A model generated the notes under the pieces. The model had not been told where the DNA came from and ran no database searches. It worked only from the letters and a program-made list of their open reading frames with translations. Shown here piece after piece: positions 17,831-21,757 of a DNA stretch of 39,495 bases (position 1 is the first letter of the stretch; each line of letters opens with the position of its first letter). Source of the stretch: Planctomycetia bacterium. GTDB taxonomy: Bacteria; Planctomycetota; Planctomycetia; Pirellulales; PNKZ01. Made by a program: the position numbers and the translations under genes. The DNA lies in NCBI GenBank assembly GCA_021413845.1, contig JAIOPP010000119.1:1-39495 (forward strand), read 5' to 3'.

Positions 17831-17941
17831 CGCGTAAGAGAGGCGTGACAAACGCTCGACGGCGCGATAAGGTGCAACCGCGCTATAAAGTCACTGCGCA
17901 GTGCGACCGGTTCGCCCGCCCTTCCCTTGAGGACTCCCGCC

Positions 17942-18802
17942 ATGTTCGTCGCTCCCGTTCGGCTTGCTTCGCTGACGAAGCCTTTGAATGCGCTCTCCGT
18001 CATCGCGTTGCTCGGCTGCGCATTGCTGGGCAGCAGCGCCGCAGCGCAAGAGCCGATCGTGCCGACTGACCGAATCGCGCTCTTCAACGGCACCGACCTC
18101 ACCGGCTGGTACACCTGGCTGAAAGACACGCAGCGCGAAGATCCGCGCAAGGTGTTCACCGTGCGCGACGGACTCCTGCACATCTCGGGCGACGGCTTCG
18201 GCTGCGTCACGACGAACCAGGCCTATCGCAATTATCATCTCGTCGCGGAGTTCAAATGGGGGCCGCGCACGTGGCATGAGCGCGCGAAGAAGGCCCGCGA
18301 TTCCGGCATCTTGGTTCATTCCTACGGTGCCGACGGCGCGTACAACGGCATCTGGATGCGTTCGATCGAAACGCAGATCATCGAAGGGGGCTACGGCGAT
18401 TTCATCGTCGTCTCCGGCGGGATCATCGATCCGAATCAGAAGCTGTCGATCAAAGCCGAGGTCGAGCAAGATCGCGACATGGAATGGGTCTGGCACGAAG
18501 GGGGCGAGAAGCGTGAGTTTCTGCGCGGCCGCGTCAACTGGTTCGGTCGCGATCCCGATTGGAAAGATGAGCTCGGCTTCCGCGGCAAGCAAGAGATCGT
18601 CCCTGCCGACGCCGAGTGGATCCGCATGGACGTGATCTGTCGCGACGATTCGATCACGAACCTCGTCAACGGCGTCGTCGTCAACCACGCGACGGAAGCG
18701 AACCCATCGACCGGCAAGATCCAGATCCAAGCCGAGCTTGCGGAGATCTTCTTTCGGCGGATCGAGTTGTACCCGCTCGGGAAAGCGCCGAAGTTCCGTT
18801 AA
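17942..18802 (+). CDS. Exported DUF1080 (3-keto-disaccharide hydrolase-type) protein
   Basis: A 286-residue protein with a signal peptide (residues 1-35, ending near SSAAAQE) and one DUF1080 domain. The domain is recognised by IALFNGTDLTGWYTW near residue 42, FTVRDGLLHISGDGFG, YHLVAEFKWG, RDSGILVHSYG and the C-terminal FFRRIELYPL. The fold is a concanavalin-like jelly roll; characterised members hydrolyse 3-keto-glycosides, and the family is greatly expanded in planctomycetes. The start is ATG 17942 with GAGGA 8 bases upstream; a TTG at 17927 is less likely. No dehydrogenase or transport partner is adjacent, so the substrate is unknown. Confidence 0.9.
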   Translation: MFVAPVRLASLTKPLNALSVIALLGCALLGSSAAAQEPIVPTDRIALFNGTDLTGWYTWLKDTQREDPRKVFTVRDGLLHISGDGFGCVTTNQAYRNYHLVAEFKWGPRTWHERAKKARDSGILVHSYGADGAYNGIWMRSIETQIIEGGYGDFIVVSGGIIDPNQKLSIKAEVEQDRDMEWVWHEGGEKREFLRGRVNWFGRDPDWKDELGFRGKQEIVPADAEWIRMDVICRDDSITNLVNGVVVNHATEANPSTGKIQIQAELAEIFFRRIELYPLGKAPKFR

Positions 18803-18808
18803 AGTAGT

Positions 18809-18966
18809 AGGCACGTTCCACGTGCCGTAACCACGTGCGCCTTTCGAGCGCGACGCACGCTCGCGCCACGTTCGACATCCGTTCAATAGCCCCGGATGCC
18901 TATCCGGGGGCGAGCCGTGTTCGTAGCTCGAAGCCCCTTGTGGCGGACGGCACGTGGAACGTGCCT
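18809..18966. repeat. Palindromic intergenic element bounded by 20-base inverted repeats
   Basis: Perfect 20-base arms at 18809-18828 and 18947-18966 (core GCACGTTCCACGTGC) enclose 118 bases. These include a nested hairpin, CCCCGGAT (18890-18897) and ATCCGGGG (18902-18909). There is no T-run and no gene inside. It looks like a REP/MITE-like mobile repeat; a search of the whole genome for copies would decide. Confidence 0.6.
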
Positions 18967-19593
18967 GCTGCATTCGGTGCATTCCTCGTCATTCGTCCTT
19001 AAAAACCGGCACAATCGGGCTTTATTATCGCAACCTACCTATGCCGCTCCCTAGCTAAGTGCTATAGTTGGGGCGTAACGAGGTGGTAAGAAGCGACGGC
19101 CCGTAGCGGTTTGCCCAGCAAACCATTGCGAGCGCTTTCGCCCCGAATGCTTCTTCTTGAAGCGGCCATTTTCCCCTGCAGCAGCGGCTTTCGAGCATTG
19201 GGCTCCAGTTCCGTGGTCCGCCGGGAAAAGTATCCGGCTCTCGACCGCGATTCACCGCTTGCCCCCTCCGCCGAGCAACACGACCGCTGCGCATTTACCA
19301 AATGCAAAGCGTCCGCTCGGTGCGTATTGGGGTCGTCCGGCTCTGCTTGCAGAGCGCGACGTGACGCGGCCGCCGGTCTTTGCAACAGCGCTTTCCTTTC
19401 CGAACACCGCACTCGCTCGAGTGCGAAATCGGAGCGAAGCGATTCGTTGCCACCGCAGCCTCCTTCGACGTCGACCCGGCGATTCTTTCGGCTGAGAACT
19501 CCACGTTCTTCGCCGCCGTGCGCTTGCCGCACCCGTCGCGACCGACGGGCCGTACCGATGTTTTCGTATTTGTGTTTCTAGGATGATTTTAGA
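18967..19593 (+). other. Long hairpin-rich leader region upstream of the DEAD-box helicase
   Basis: More than 600 bases without a convincing gene; overlapping frames on both strands look like chance. At least five short, tight, perfect hairpins are spread through it: 19108-19124 (7 bp, loop 3), 19291-19305 (6 bp, loop 3), 19340-19355 (6-7 bp, loop 2-4), 19408-19425 (8 bp, loop 2) and 19532-19549 (7 bp, loop 4). This is more than expected by chance and suggests a structured 5' leader or a separate RNA. Cold-induced helicase mRNAs in other bacteria have long structured leaders, so a regulatory UTR is a reasonable inference. A possible -10 (TATAGT) lies near 19062. Confidence 0.4.
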
Positions 19594-21111
19594 ATGACGA
19601 CGTTCCAAGACTTAGGGCTTTCCGAACCGCTGCTCCGCGCGATTGCCGCCGACGGTTATGAAACCCCGACCCCGATTCAAGCCCAGGCGATTCCGCACGT
19701 GCTCGCCGGCCGCGACCTTTTCGGTTGCGCTCAAACAGGCACCGGCAAAACCGCCGCGTTCGCCGTACCGCTCATCGAGCGGCTCATCGCCGACCCGAAG
19801 CAGGTCGCTCCGAAGCAATGCCGCGTGCTGGTTCTCGCCCCGACGCGCGAACTCGCCGGCCAAATCCATGAGAGCTTCCGGAGCTACGGCCGGAACACGA
19901 AGCTGCGCTCGACCGTCATCTACGGCGGCGTCAACCAACGTCCGCAAGCGACGGCGATGATGCGCGGCCTCGACGTCTTGATCGCCACGCCGGGCCGGCT
20001 GATCGACTTGGTCAATCAACGGCTCGTCGAATTGAAGAACGTCGAATACCTCGTGCTCGATGAAGCCGACCGAATGCTCGATATGGGCTTCATCCACGAT
20101 GTGCGCCGGATCGTGAAGATGATCCCCACGCAACGACAGACGTTGTTCTTCTCGGCCACGTTGCCGAAAGAAGTTCGATCGCTCGCCGACTCGATGCTCC
20201 GCGATCCGCTGGAAATTCAAACCACGCCTCAAGCTACGCCGGCGCAAACCGTCGAGCAATCGGTGTTCTTCGTCCCGCAGAAGCAGAAGCGACATCTCTT
20301 GGTGCATCTGTTGCAAGATGGTGCGATGAGCCGCGTCATCGTGTTCACGCGCACGAAGCATGGTGCCGACAAGCTGCAAAAAGACTTGGTCAAGTCGGGC
20401 ATCCGCGCCGAAGCGATTCACGGCAACAAGAGCCAGAACCAGCGCGAACGGGCCTTGGCCGCGTTCAAGTCGCAGAAGCCGCCGATCTTGATCGCGACCG
20501 ACATCGCGGCCCGCGGCATCGACGTCGACGGCGTGTCGCATGTCGTCAACTACGAACTGCCGCACGAACCGGAAACCTACGTGCATCGCATCGGCCGCAC
20601 CGGTCGCGCCGGCCTCACCGGCTCGGCCGTCGCGTTCTGCGATCCGGAAGAGCGTTCGCGTCTGCGCGACATCGAGCGCTTGCTCCGCAAGACGATCCCG
20701 GCCCGAGGGGAACTCCCGCAGTTCGATCCGGCGCTGGTCGCCGCAGTCCACGACACGAGCCCTGAGCGCGGCGATCGTGGCGAGCGTTCGCAAGGCCAAG
20801 GTCGCTCACGGAGCGTCATCGGCGGCGAAGCCCGCTCGGGTGGTCGCTCCGGCTCCGGCCGCAGCAACAGCGGCGGCGGTCGCGGTGGTCGGACGAATAC
20901 CCGTTCTTCGGGCGGTCGCCCCAGCGGCGGCTCTTCCCAAGGAGGGCATGGCGGCCACGGTCGAGCACACGGCTCCTCCGGCGGTGGCGCAAGCCGTCCG
21001 GCAAACGGCGGCGGCAACGGTACGGCACCCGCCGTGCATGCCCCGGCAAAGCCTGCCGGACCAGCTGCGGAAGGTCGCCCGCCGCAGAAAAAGCATCGCC
21101 GTGCCCTGTAA
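19594..21111 (+). CDS. rhlE: RhlE-type DEAD-box RNA helicase
   Basis: A 505-residue ATP-dependent RNA helicase. The Q-motif PTPIQ is at about 25-29, Walker A AQTGTGKT at 46-53, PTRELA at 83-88, DEAD at 156-159 and SAT at 187-189. FTRTKHGADKL is near 251, ATDIAARGID at 301-310 and HRIGRTGRAG at 331-340. Sequence around DEADRMLDMGFIHDVRR and AIHGNKSQ is closest to RhlE, which acts in ribosome assembly and RNA turnover. The C-terminal 120 residues are a low-complexity Gly/Arg/Ser/His tail that probably binds RNA or drives condensate formation. ATG 19594 is preceded by AGGATG. The long leader upstream and a strong terminator downstream show it is a single-gene unit. Confidence 0.93.
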   Translation: MTTFQDLGLSEPLLRAIAADGYETPTPIQAQAIPHVLAGRDLFGCAQTGTGKTAAFAVPLIERLIADPKQVAPKQCRVLVLAPTRELAGQIHESFRSYGRNTKLRSTVIYGGVNQRPQATAMMRGLDVLIATPGRLIDLVNQRLVELKNVEYLVLDEADRMLDMGFIHDVRRIVKMIPTQRQTLFFSATLPKEVRSLADSMLRDPLEIQTTPQATPAQTVEQSVFFVPQKQKRHLLVHLLQDGAMSRVIVFTRTKHGADKLQKDLVKSGIRAEAIHGNKSQNQRERALAAFKSQKPPILIATDIAARGIDVDGVSHVVNYELPHEPETYVHRIGRTGRAGLTGSAVAFCDPEERSRLRDIERLLRKTIPARGELPQFDPALVAAVHDTSPERGDRGERSQGQGRSRSVIGGEARSGGRSGSGRSNSGGGRGGRTNTRSSGGRPSGGSSQGGHGGHGRAHGSSGGGASRPANGGGNGTAPAVHAPAKPAGPAAEGRPPQKKHRRAL

Positions 21112-21137
21112 TGAGCCGCGGCATAGAATAACCATGC

Positions 21138-21188
21138 GGGAGATGGAGCCGCTCGCCTCAGGCGCTGGCGGCTCCGTCTCCCTTTTTT
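21138..21188 (+). terminator. Intrinsic terminator of the DEAD-box helicase gene
   Basis: 15-bp stem (21138-21152 with 21168-21182, one G-U pair) followed by six Ts (21183-21188). It separates the helicase from infC. Confidence 0.9.
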
Positions 21189-21256
21189 ACCTATCTATCG
21201 GGTAGCGTTTAACGTAAAGTTTTACTAATTCCAGTTTTACAAAAGGCCTTCCGACC

Positions 21257-21757
21257 ATCGAACACAAGCAAAAAGTGAATGAGCAGATCCGCGTTCCCCA
21301 AGTGCGGATGATCGGCGCCGACGGCGCTCAGTTGGGGATCATGAACACCGTGGACGCTCTGAACCAGGCACGCGAGGCGGGCTTGGATCTCGTCGAAGTT
21401 TCTCCGAACGAGAAGCCCCCGGTCGTCCGTGTGATGGACTTCGGCAAGTTCAACTACCAGAAAAACAAGCGCAAGAATAAGAACGTCACGCACCAGCAGC
21501 GGCTCAAAGAGATTCGTGTCCGCCCGCAAACCGGGGCCCACGACATCGACATTCGCGTGAAGCAGGCCCGCGGGTTCTTGGAAGAACGGGATAAGGTGTT
21601 GGTGACGCTGACCTTCCGGGGTCGCGAACTGGCCCACATTCAAGAAGGCCAAAAGATTCTCGACGGGATCGTTTTGCAACTGGCGGACGTCGCTAGCGTC
21701 GAGGCCCCCTCGATGCGTCAGGCGAAGCGTTTGACCTGCATTTTGGCCCCGAAATAG
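21257..21757 (+). CDS. infC: Translation initiation factor IF-3
   Basis: IF3 binds the 30S subunit, keeps it apart from the 50S and checks the start codon. The protein has the IF3 N-domain (VNEQIRVPQVRMIGADGAQLGIM), the linker with KFNYQKNKRKNKN, and the C-domain (RVRPQTGAHDIDIRVKQA, LTFRGRELAH). No ATG exists in frame between the upstream stop (21215-21217) and the gene. An AUC at 21257 lies 10 bases after AAAAGG, while the alternative GTG at 21275 has no Shine-Dalgarno and would begin right at the conserved VNEQIR. A non-AUG AUU/AUC start is the known basis of infC autoregulation in other bacteria, so I prefer AUC (166 residues). rpmI and rplT, usual partners, do not follow. Confidence 0.93.
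   Translation: MEHKQKVNEQIRVPQVRMIGADGAQLGIMNTVDALNQAREAGLDLVEVSPNEKPPVVRVMDFGKFNYQKNKRKNKNVTHQQRLKEIRVRPQTGAHDIDIRVKQARGFLEERDKVLVTLTFRGRELAHIQEGQKILDGIVLQLADVASVEAPSMRQAKRLTCILAPK

Follow-up and report, generated by a model that had tools for sequence, protein, structure and literature searches.

The window analysed here is a stretch of 39,495 nucleotides from a Planctomycetia bacterium. Between positions 19060 and 19593 it holds no annotated-like gene, and this part stops directly at the ATG of a helicase gene. Do these bases form a structured RNA, does that RNA belong to the helicase mRNA, and what could it do there? The order at the locus is a 3-keto-disaccharide hydrolase, a repeat-rich gap, the leader, an RhlE-like helicase, and IF-3 (Table 1). 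The helicase contains the domains PF00270 (1.8e-53) and PF00271 (2e-32). An earlier note on this DNA had called it RhlE-type, which appears to be fair; the top NCBIfam models are RhlE2 (534 bits) and RhlE (497 bits), both below their cut-offs. Outside the window's own copies (L011 and L041), no locus showed IF-3 next to the helicase; most of the loci extend no more than about 1.5 kb beyond the match.

Table 1. Coordinates of the features at the helicase locus, as positions in the window.
Feature	Position	Strand	Remarks
3-keto-disaccharide hydrolase	17927-18802		PF06439
Extended -10 promoter match TGCTATAGT	19060-19068	+	
5' leader RNA of the helicase mRNA	19075-19593	+	start predicted; conserved blocks shared with the leaders of 3 of 3 other genus genomes
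P1, 5' strand GAGGUGGUAAG	19080-19090	+	close to the RNA's 5' end
P2 hairpin, outer pairs GCGA:UCGC	19093-19141	+	contains 19108-19124; from arm-swap tests and window fold
Tight hairpin	19108-19124		7 bp; variable tip of P2
Junction strand J2/3 AUGCUUCUUCUUGAAGCGGCC	19147-19167	+	GCGG able to pair with CCGC of J3/1
P3 stem-loop	19169-19229	+	UUUUCCC (19169-19175) with GGGAAAA (19223-19229); from arm-swap tests
Junction strand J3/1 UCGACCGCGAUU	19241-19252	+	most conserved block
P1, 3' strand CUUGCCCCCUC	19258-19268	+	C19264 opposite U19084 in a pyrimidine mismatch
Domain 2 closing stem, 5' strand CCGAGC	19271-19276	+	
Remainder of domain 2	19277-19531	+	variable hairpins 19291-19305 and 19340-19355; window-specific insertion with 19408-19425
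Tight hairpin	19291-19305		6 bp; variable part of domain 2
Domain 2 closing stem, 3' strand GCUCGG	19315-19320	+	
Tight hairpin	19340-19355		7 bp; variable part of domain 2
Tight hairpin	19408-19425		8 bp; within an insertion that aligned relatives lack
Terminal hairpin CCCGUCG-CGAC-CGACGGG (tight hairpin)	19532-19549	+	7 bp; conserved helix with compensating changes in relatives
Likely Shine-Dalgarno AGGA	19580-19583	+	from its place before the ATG
RhlE-like DEAD-box RNA helicase	19594-21111	+	505 aa; Gly/Arg/Ser-rich tail; ATG at 19594
IF-3 gene	21275-21757		3' of the helicase

Hairpins and folded domains of the leader

The earlier note had counted five tight perfect hairpins in 19060-19593 and had held that chance would give well under one with a 7-bp stem. 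Both statements stand. With a perfect Watson-Crick stem of 6-8 bp and a loop of 2-4 required, five hairpins are present; dinucleotide shuffles had a mean of 0.57, and none of 1000 reached five. Four of the stems are at least 7 bp, compared with 0.17 expected (0 of 500 shuffles). When 146 sliding stretches of 534 bases were taken over the window, three held four hairpins with stems of at least 7 bp, and all three overlap 19060-19593. The fold of the whole leader is slightly better than that of shuffled sequence (z -1.96, with 2 of 100 shuffles folding as well). The count of tight hairpins is not conserved, since the leaders of four relatives have 2, 4, 2, and 0. The conserved core is mostly separate from the five tight hairpins.

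The 5' domain (19080-19268) is a predicted, conserved three-way junction composed of P1, P2, P3, and near-invariant junction strands. P1 is formed by GAGGUGGUAAG paired with CUUGCCCCCUC, giving 4 bp, a U.C mismatch, and 6 bp. GAGG:CCUC of P1 in family f1 becomes AAGG:CCUU in family f7, where the strands read AAGGUGUGAG and CUUGCCCCUU; the pairs change together and the mismatch is kept. In part of family f15, AGGUGCGAG pairs with CUUGCUCCU and the mismatch is U.U. The outer half of P1 is irregular in some f15 rows, and many rows have gaps or no pairing at the last two outer pairs. The equivalent of J2/3 in other families is UCAUUC..UUCGA..GCGG. The second junction strand, J3/1, reads UCGACCGCGAYU, and its columns are mostly invariant (16 sequences). 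The two junction strands are joined by GCGG:CCGC, which is paired in 96% of cells. P2 and P3 are very different in sequence among species and keep their pairing. An extension of P1 (19072-19075 with 19269-19272) was considered and set aside; it would lie mostly 5' of the expected transcript start and is absent in L019, L059, and L060.

Covariation in related genomes had been put forward as a check, and when this was run the helices stayed paired while their sequence varied. In alignment A2, which was fitted to the structure and has 33 distinct but related rows, P1 and GCGG:CCGC gave 17 double-change cells compared with 6.5 in shuffles (0 of 500). Three of the five measures, namely paired cells, double-change cells, and covariation score, were above all 500 shuffles. 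The weaker measures were pairs with a double change, reached by 11 of 500 shuffles, and further pair types, reached by 160 of 500. The structure was also better than every slid version of itself. The covariation in A2 can be taken as support for the predicted fold and not as proof.

P2 and P3 are not alignable column by column, so an arm-swap test was used for them. In this test the pairing of each 5' arm with its own 3' partner was compared with its pairing to 3' arms from other species, with permutation within groups only. It covered 32 of the 34 rows of A2; L074 (a duplicate of L059) and L075 (a truncated copy of L052) were left out. Own arms gave -11.5 for P2 compared with -9.0 when swapped (sd 0.43), and -11.8 for P3 compared with -9.6 (sd 0.44); for each, 0 of 5000 permutations did as well. 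The own partner is far from the best in some sequences, ranking 17 of 32 for one P2 and 30 of 32 for one P3, and in the g32 group the P3 arms pair almost as well with those of others (-13.1) as with their own partners (-13.4). A held-out set of 20 sequences, found later and outside model building, was used as well. Its P1 and GCGG:CCGC are near-invariant, and their covariation does not exceed that of shuffles (the score was attained by 67 of 500). For its arm-swap test with unrestricted permutation, 15 of the 20 rows could be parsed (L111, L120, L122, L123, and L127 were dropped, and L113 has a wrong P3 end), and the own arms were matched by 0 of 5000 permutations for P2 and 2 of 5000 for P3.

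Domain 2 follows the junction. Its closing stem, CCGAGC:GCUCGG in the window, reads CCGAAC:GUUCGG in relatives, and 5 of 6 keep the A-U to G-C pair. Conserved blocks lie near 19322-19335 and 19475-19484. The consensus fold of domain 2 for six close leaders has -114.8 kcal/mol, compared with -82.7 (sd 5.5) for column shuffles, of which 0 of 100 were as low. Double changes were found in 16 of its 71 pairs, and 368 of 426 cells are paired. By eye, the second domain differs in other families.

Within the genus, searching directly with the DNA recovered parts of the leader from 3 of 3 other genomes, at the equivalent position ahead of the same helicase. Overall it gave matches in 5 of 57 genomes, the window's own included, with one match in G033. 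Four genus leaders, 432-534 nt long when measured from the -10 element, have several blocks in common. These are the promoter and GUAACGAGGUGGUAAGA at the 5' end, a mid-leader block UCGACCGCGAUUC..CUUGCCCCCUCCGCCGA (with some bases changed in L013), GCGUA..GGGGUCG..CUGCU, and a 3' block with the terminal hairpin. Between the blocks, sequence and length are variable. The earlier note's proposal of a candidate structured RNA is borne out by an element at the same place in related genomes, by helices that change yet remain paired, and by near-invariant junctions. From these comparisons, it is almost certain that 19075-19593 is a conserved structured leader RNA.

Promoter match, expected transcript, and other readings

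The beginning of the RNA can be estimated from the promoter match, which places the expected transcription start at about 19074-19077. The best -10-like match is found 8-16 nt 5' of P1 in 30 of 32 homologues, the exceptions being L087 and L070. The match scores in this set are 5 to 8 of 8, with a mean of 5.97, compared with 4.73 in shuffles (the highest of 200 shuffles was 5.13). In a control region 370-300 bp upstream the mean score was 4.29 (31 loci). With the -10 match at this distance, P1 should sit at the extreme 5' end of the RNA. If the start is set 7 nt past the -10, P1 is predicted to begin about 1-10 nt after it in 30 of 32 sequences. The distance from P1 to the helicase start is about 245-514 nt in 32 sequences by an extrapolated alignment, and the window's leader is the longest, with about 520 nt from the -10 match to the helicase ATG. 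It is by position and promoter match only that the element is assigned to the leader of the helicase mRNA.

The region could in principle encode a small protein or a leader peptide, or consist of hairpins that came from repeats and have no function. Two long open reading frames, 19111-19581 (+) and 19062-19532 (-), have 156 aa each, and some relatives have long open frames too, on the minus strand (166 codons in L014 and 125 in L019). Weak tblastn matches were obtained between the window's reading frames and the relatives' leaders, with E 6.8e-5 over 34 aa (L013), 1.6e-4 over 31 aa (L014), and 0.003 over 135 aa at 31% (L012). However, these matches are short or weak, involve different reading frames in each relative, and lie partly inside blocks conserved as DNA. 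The two longest frames have no Pfam match, and the distances between conserved blocks fall into all three classes modulo 3 (16, 9, and 7 of 32, two of the 32 being mis-anchored). The frames appear to be long by chance, because the DNA is G+C-rich, and the same is seen in relatives. The earlier note had read the region as noncoding, and no clear conserved reading frame was found against relatives; a coding or attenuator leader is extremely improbable. As for repeats, a REP-like palindrome pattern occurs at 179 places in the genome (reversed control 0) and about 100 bp upstream of the leader. The leader itself has a single match in its own genome and is kept before the same gene across families, so a repeat-derived origin is already contradicted and barely conceivable. 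The palindrome pair, GGCACGTTCCACGTGCC / GGCACGTGGAACGTGCC, stands on both sides of another hairpin (18810-18826, 18890-18909, and 18949-18965), and such palindromes are often paired about 80-160 bp apart among the matches listed.

Other routes of control were also explored. Terminator-like sites in 18780-21300 numbered 2, compared with 3.5 (sd 2.2) in shuffles, and the one in the leader has a 5-bp stem. An attenuator based on an intrinsic terminator was rejected, as an excess of terminators is absent there. Release of an anti-Shine-Dalgarno pairing from P1 was likewise rejected; in 15 leaders the P1 3' strand paired with the Shine-Dalgarno region at a mean of -5.2 kcal/mol, compared with -6.1 for shuffled Shine-Dalgarno regions. 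Compared with E. coli 16S and 23S rRNA, the leader shows no significant similarity in sequence (best E 0.12). One 14/15 complement to 16S positions 536-550 (E 0.45) is not kept in the f7 and f15 strands, and mimicry of rRNA by sequence was set aside. A switch from junction to Shine-Dalgarno has no support from conserved pairing of the P1 3' strand, and no rRNA-like sequence that would explain recognition by the helicase was found against the E. coli rRNAs. Rfam 15 at the gathering cut-off gave 0 matches in the window and 20 helicase loci, a set that leaves aside the class B loci of f15 and most of f7. With permissive settings, 18950-19700 yielded a single Rfam match, which is on the opposite strand and has 17 bits compared with a cut-off of 40. 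The assembly that contains the window (G000), which is rated 99.6% complete, has no 16S or 23S rRNA match at E 0.001; the same search also came up empty in 4 and 5 of 14 control genomes, and either the search or the assembly may be the cause.

Distribution and other leader types

A covariance model of domain 1, R1, was built without helicase sequence. It matched in 10 of 391 phylum genomes, 14 of 149 genomes of family f15, and 28 of 33 of family f7. These are 45 distinct genomes (9 in the training set and 36 outside it) with one match apiece, and in 45 of 45 the match is directly upstream of an RhlE-like helicase. The earlier note's description of the region as a leader of the helicase is consistent with this, as with the promoter match before P1. 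R1 was without a match in 381 of the 391 phylum genomes at strict Infernal filters. The filters were strict in the two larger searches and laxer in f7, so the absences in the larger searches are soft.

Of 396 genomes of the order, 14 contain the pattern CGACCGCGATTN{2,8}CTTGCCCC, built on J3/1 (reversed control 0), and 13 of the 14 matches are upstream of the helicase, L058 being the exception. A scan of named records with the pattern gave Botrimarina colliarenosi Pla108, Adhaeretor mobilis HG15A2 (a complete chromosome), and Pirellula sp. PB1.007. There were 15 matches on named contigs, which largely duplicate genomes already counted and were not added to the totals. Ten scored above 115 bits with R1 and nine of those show a helicase; the tenth, L074, is apparently the same place as L059, and its stretch stops 354 bases past the match. 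The stretches of L073, L077, L079 (19 bits), L080, and L085 are without a helicase, and these matches appear chance-like. Apart from chance-like pattern matches, this leader RNA was seen only in planctomycetes. In family f8, which contains close relatives of the helicase (L015, L016, and L017), R1 missed the leaders, with one 7-bit match in L016 (E 1.7). These leaders share a CATCTTCTTGAAGCGGCC-like stretch with the window, clearest in L016, and the rest of the motif is absent. They are possibly a diverged class B, the class to which the window's leader belongs.

A second leader, class A, was identified in 13 of the first 30 helicase loci, 27 of which have a readable upstream region (L018, L025, and L028 are at contig ends). 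These loci are L020, L021, L024, L026, L027, L030-L036, and L038; 16 places had been listed, and L018, L029, and L037 were left out by eye. Like class B, the class A leader is structured, has a promoter match at its start, and stands directly before related helicases. Unlike class B, it is about 110 nt long and has another sequence and fold. It possesses three hairpins, CCAUUGG..GCCAGGUCCAAUGG, GAACGC..GCGUUC, and GGUCCUGGGAC..GGGACC, the last of which runs across the ribosome-binding site and covers the Shine-Dalgarno. By eye, a loop GCCAGG could pair with CCUGG. No gathering-level Rfam match was present in the 9 of 13 class A loci that were scanned. The class A model, R2, matched in 6 of 391 genomes, each time ahead of the helicase (6 of 6), with one (G005) in training; it had no match in the window and 39 other loci.

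In a tree of 56 helicase proteins, with L047 dropped as too short and stops read as X, the leader types cluster strongly. Five changes are needed for three groups, compared with 21.4 in shuffles. Families f1 and f15 each contain both leader types, so the leader tracks the helicase clade rather than the species. Different helicase clades keep different structured leaders, and tight control of the helicase therefore seems to be under lasting selection. The helicase and leader of L048 (G017, family f12) were placed among family f7 in the tree, by transfer or as a misplaced contig. In family f13, L023 and L029 have leaders that share a 54-nt block, 96% identical and unlike class A or B, which is perhaps a third leader type.

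Possible function and known systems

It is very likely, judging from its structure and position, that the leader controls the helicase in cis. Control by translation, mRNA decay, or Rho would be likelier than classical attenuation, because there is no excess of terminators and no clear leader peptide. The simplest reading is feedback by the helicase, since the helicase is the only shared partner and CrhR offers a precedent. With RNA unwinding in short supply, as might occur in the cold, the folded leader would stay in one state. When helicase is plentiful, it could bind or remodel the 5' junction domain; the leader would then change state, and translation or mRNA stability would be lowered. 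Control of the leader by the helicase itself has slightly less than an even chance. The full proposal, a cis-acting structured leader that sets helicase output by feedback, may be considered evenly balanced.

The same structure could serve other purposes. A metabolite, an ion, another RNA-binding protein, or temperature could act at the junction, as in a riboswitch or thermosensor. A compact three-way junction with near-invariant strands, which is aptamer-like and typical of binding pockets, is indeed present, and a single target gene fits a dedicated sensor. However, all 45 model matches lie before one gene class, with no metabolic or transport gene that hints at a ligand, which suggests that the gene class points to none. 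The leaders, even at their shortest, are long for a simple thermosensor, and such sensing at the junction is unlikely. Autoregulation through mRNA stability is quite improbable, though the place of P1 close to the expected start would suit it: P1 would shield the 5' end from 5'-end-dependent decay, and the helicase would open P1 for the decay machinery. E. coli RhlE is described in passages of PMC3485376 as degradosome-associated in the cold. This reading leaves the near-invariant junction and domain 2 unexplained. The less likely option of an independent non-coding RNA, in which the leader is processed off and acts in trans, could draw on the promoter match of the RNA and its roughly 500 nt of structure. 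The constant place of the element directly upstream of the same gene and the lack of an excess of intrinsic terminators stand against it, and it is very improbable. Among these readings, feedback by the helicase on its own leader is the most likely.

DEAD-box proteins usually have little sequence specificity, a point against feedback through this leader. A gene-specific RNA before a helicase is a handle on how such a low-specificity protein regulates one mRNA. The leader is present in named strains, Adhaeretor mobilis HG15A2 and Botrimarina colliarenosi Pla108, so tests are practical. A further-reaching possibility is that this is the first conserved RNA specifically recognized by an RhlE-type helicase that tunes its own synthesis. 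The 5' junction would be a sensor of helicase activity, and two unrelated folds, class B and class A of sister clades, would do the same job within one bacterial class. This is rather doubtful on present comparisons. To our knowledge, few regulatory RNAs have been described from planctomycetes, and nothing was found in the open-licence PMC literature on a leader RNA of planctomycete helicases.

Autoregulation of a DEAD-box helicase is known for DeaD/CsdA of E. coli. RNase E and PNPase, also proteins of RNA metabolism, are encoded by the genes of the rne-II and Actino-pnp leaders. CrhR of Synechocystis is the closest helicase for comparison; passages of PMC3485376 describe it as needed for its own regulation. 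The likeness is a DEAD-box RNA helicase gene under post-transcriptional control (PMC3485376), with autoregulation being a proposal for the leader described here. CrhR differs in that the main text of PMC3485376 contains the term 'UTR' 0 times and the passages on CrhR give no leader structure. The rne-II and Actino-pnp leaders are likewise candidate cis-regulatory structured RNAs (Weinberg 2010, PMC2864571). They belong to other lineages and are both Rfam families, whereas the leader here matches no Rfam family in the window or the helicase loci scanned. The Rhodopirellula-1 motif is a candidate cis-regulatory RNA of Proteobacteria and Planctomycetes; it is rated ambiguous as an RNA and has no Rfam number (PMC2864571), and it could be either identical with or distinct from the class A or class B leader. 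The leader family described here appears to be new; structured cis leaders of RNA-metabolism genes are, as a kind, already known.
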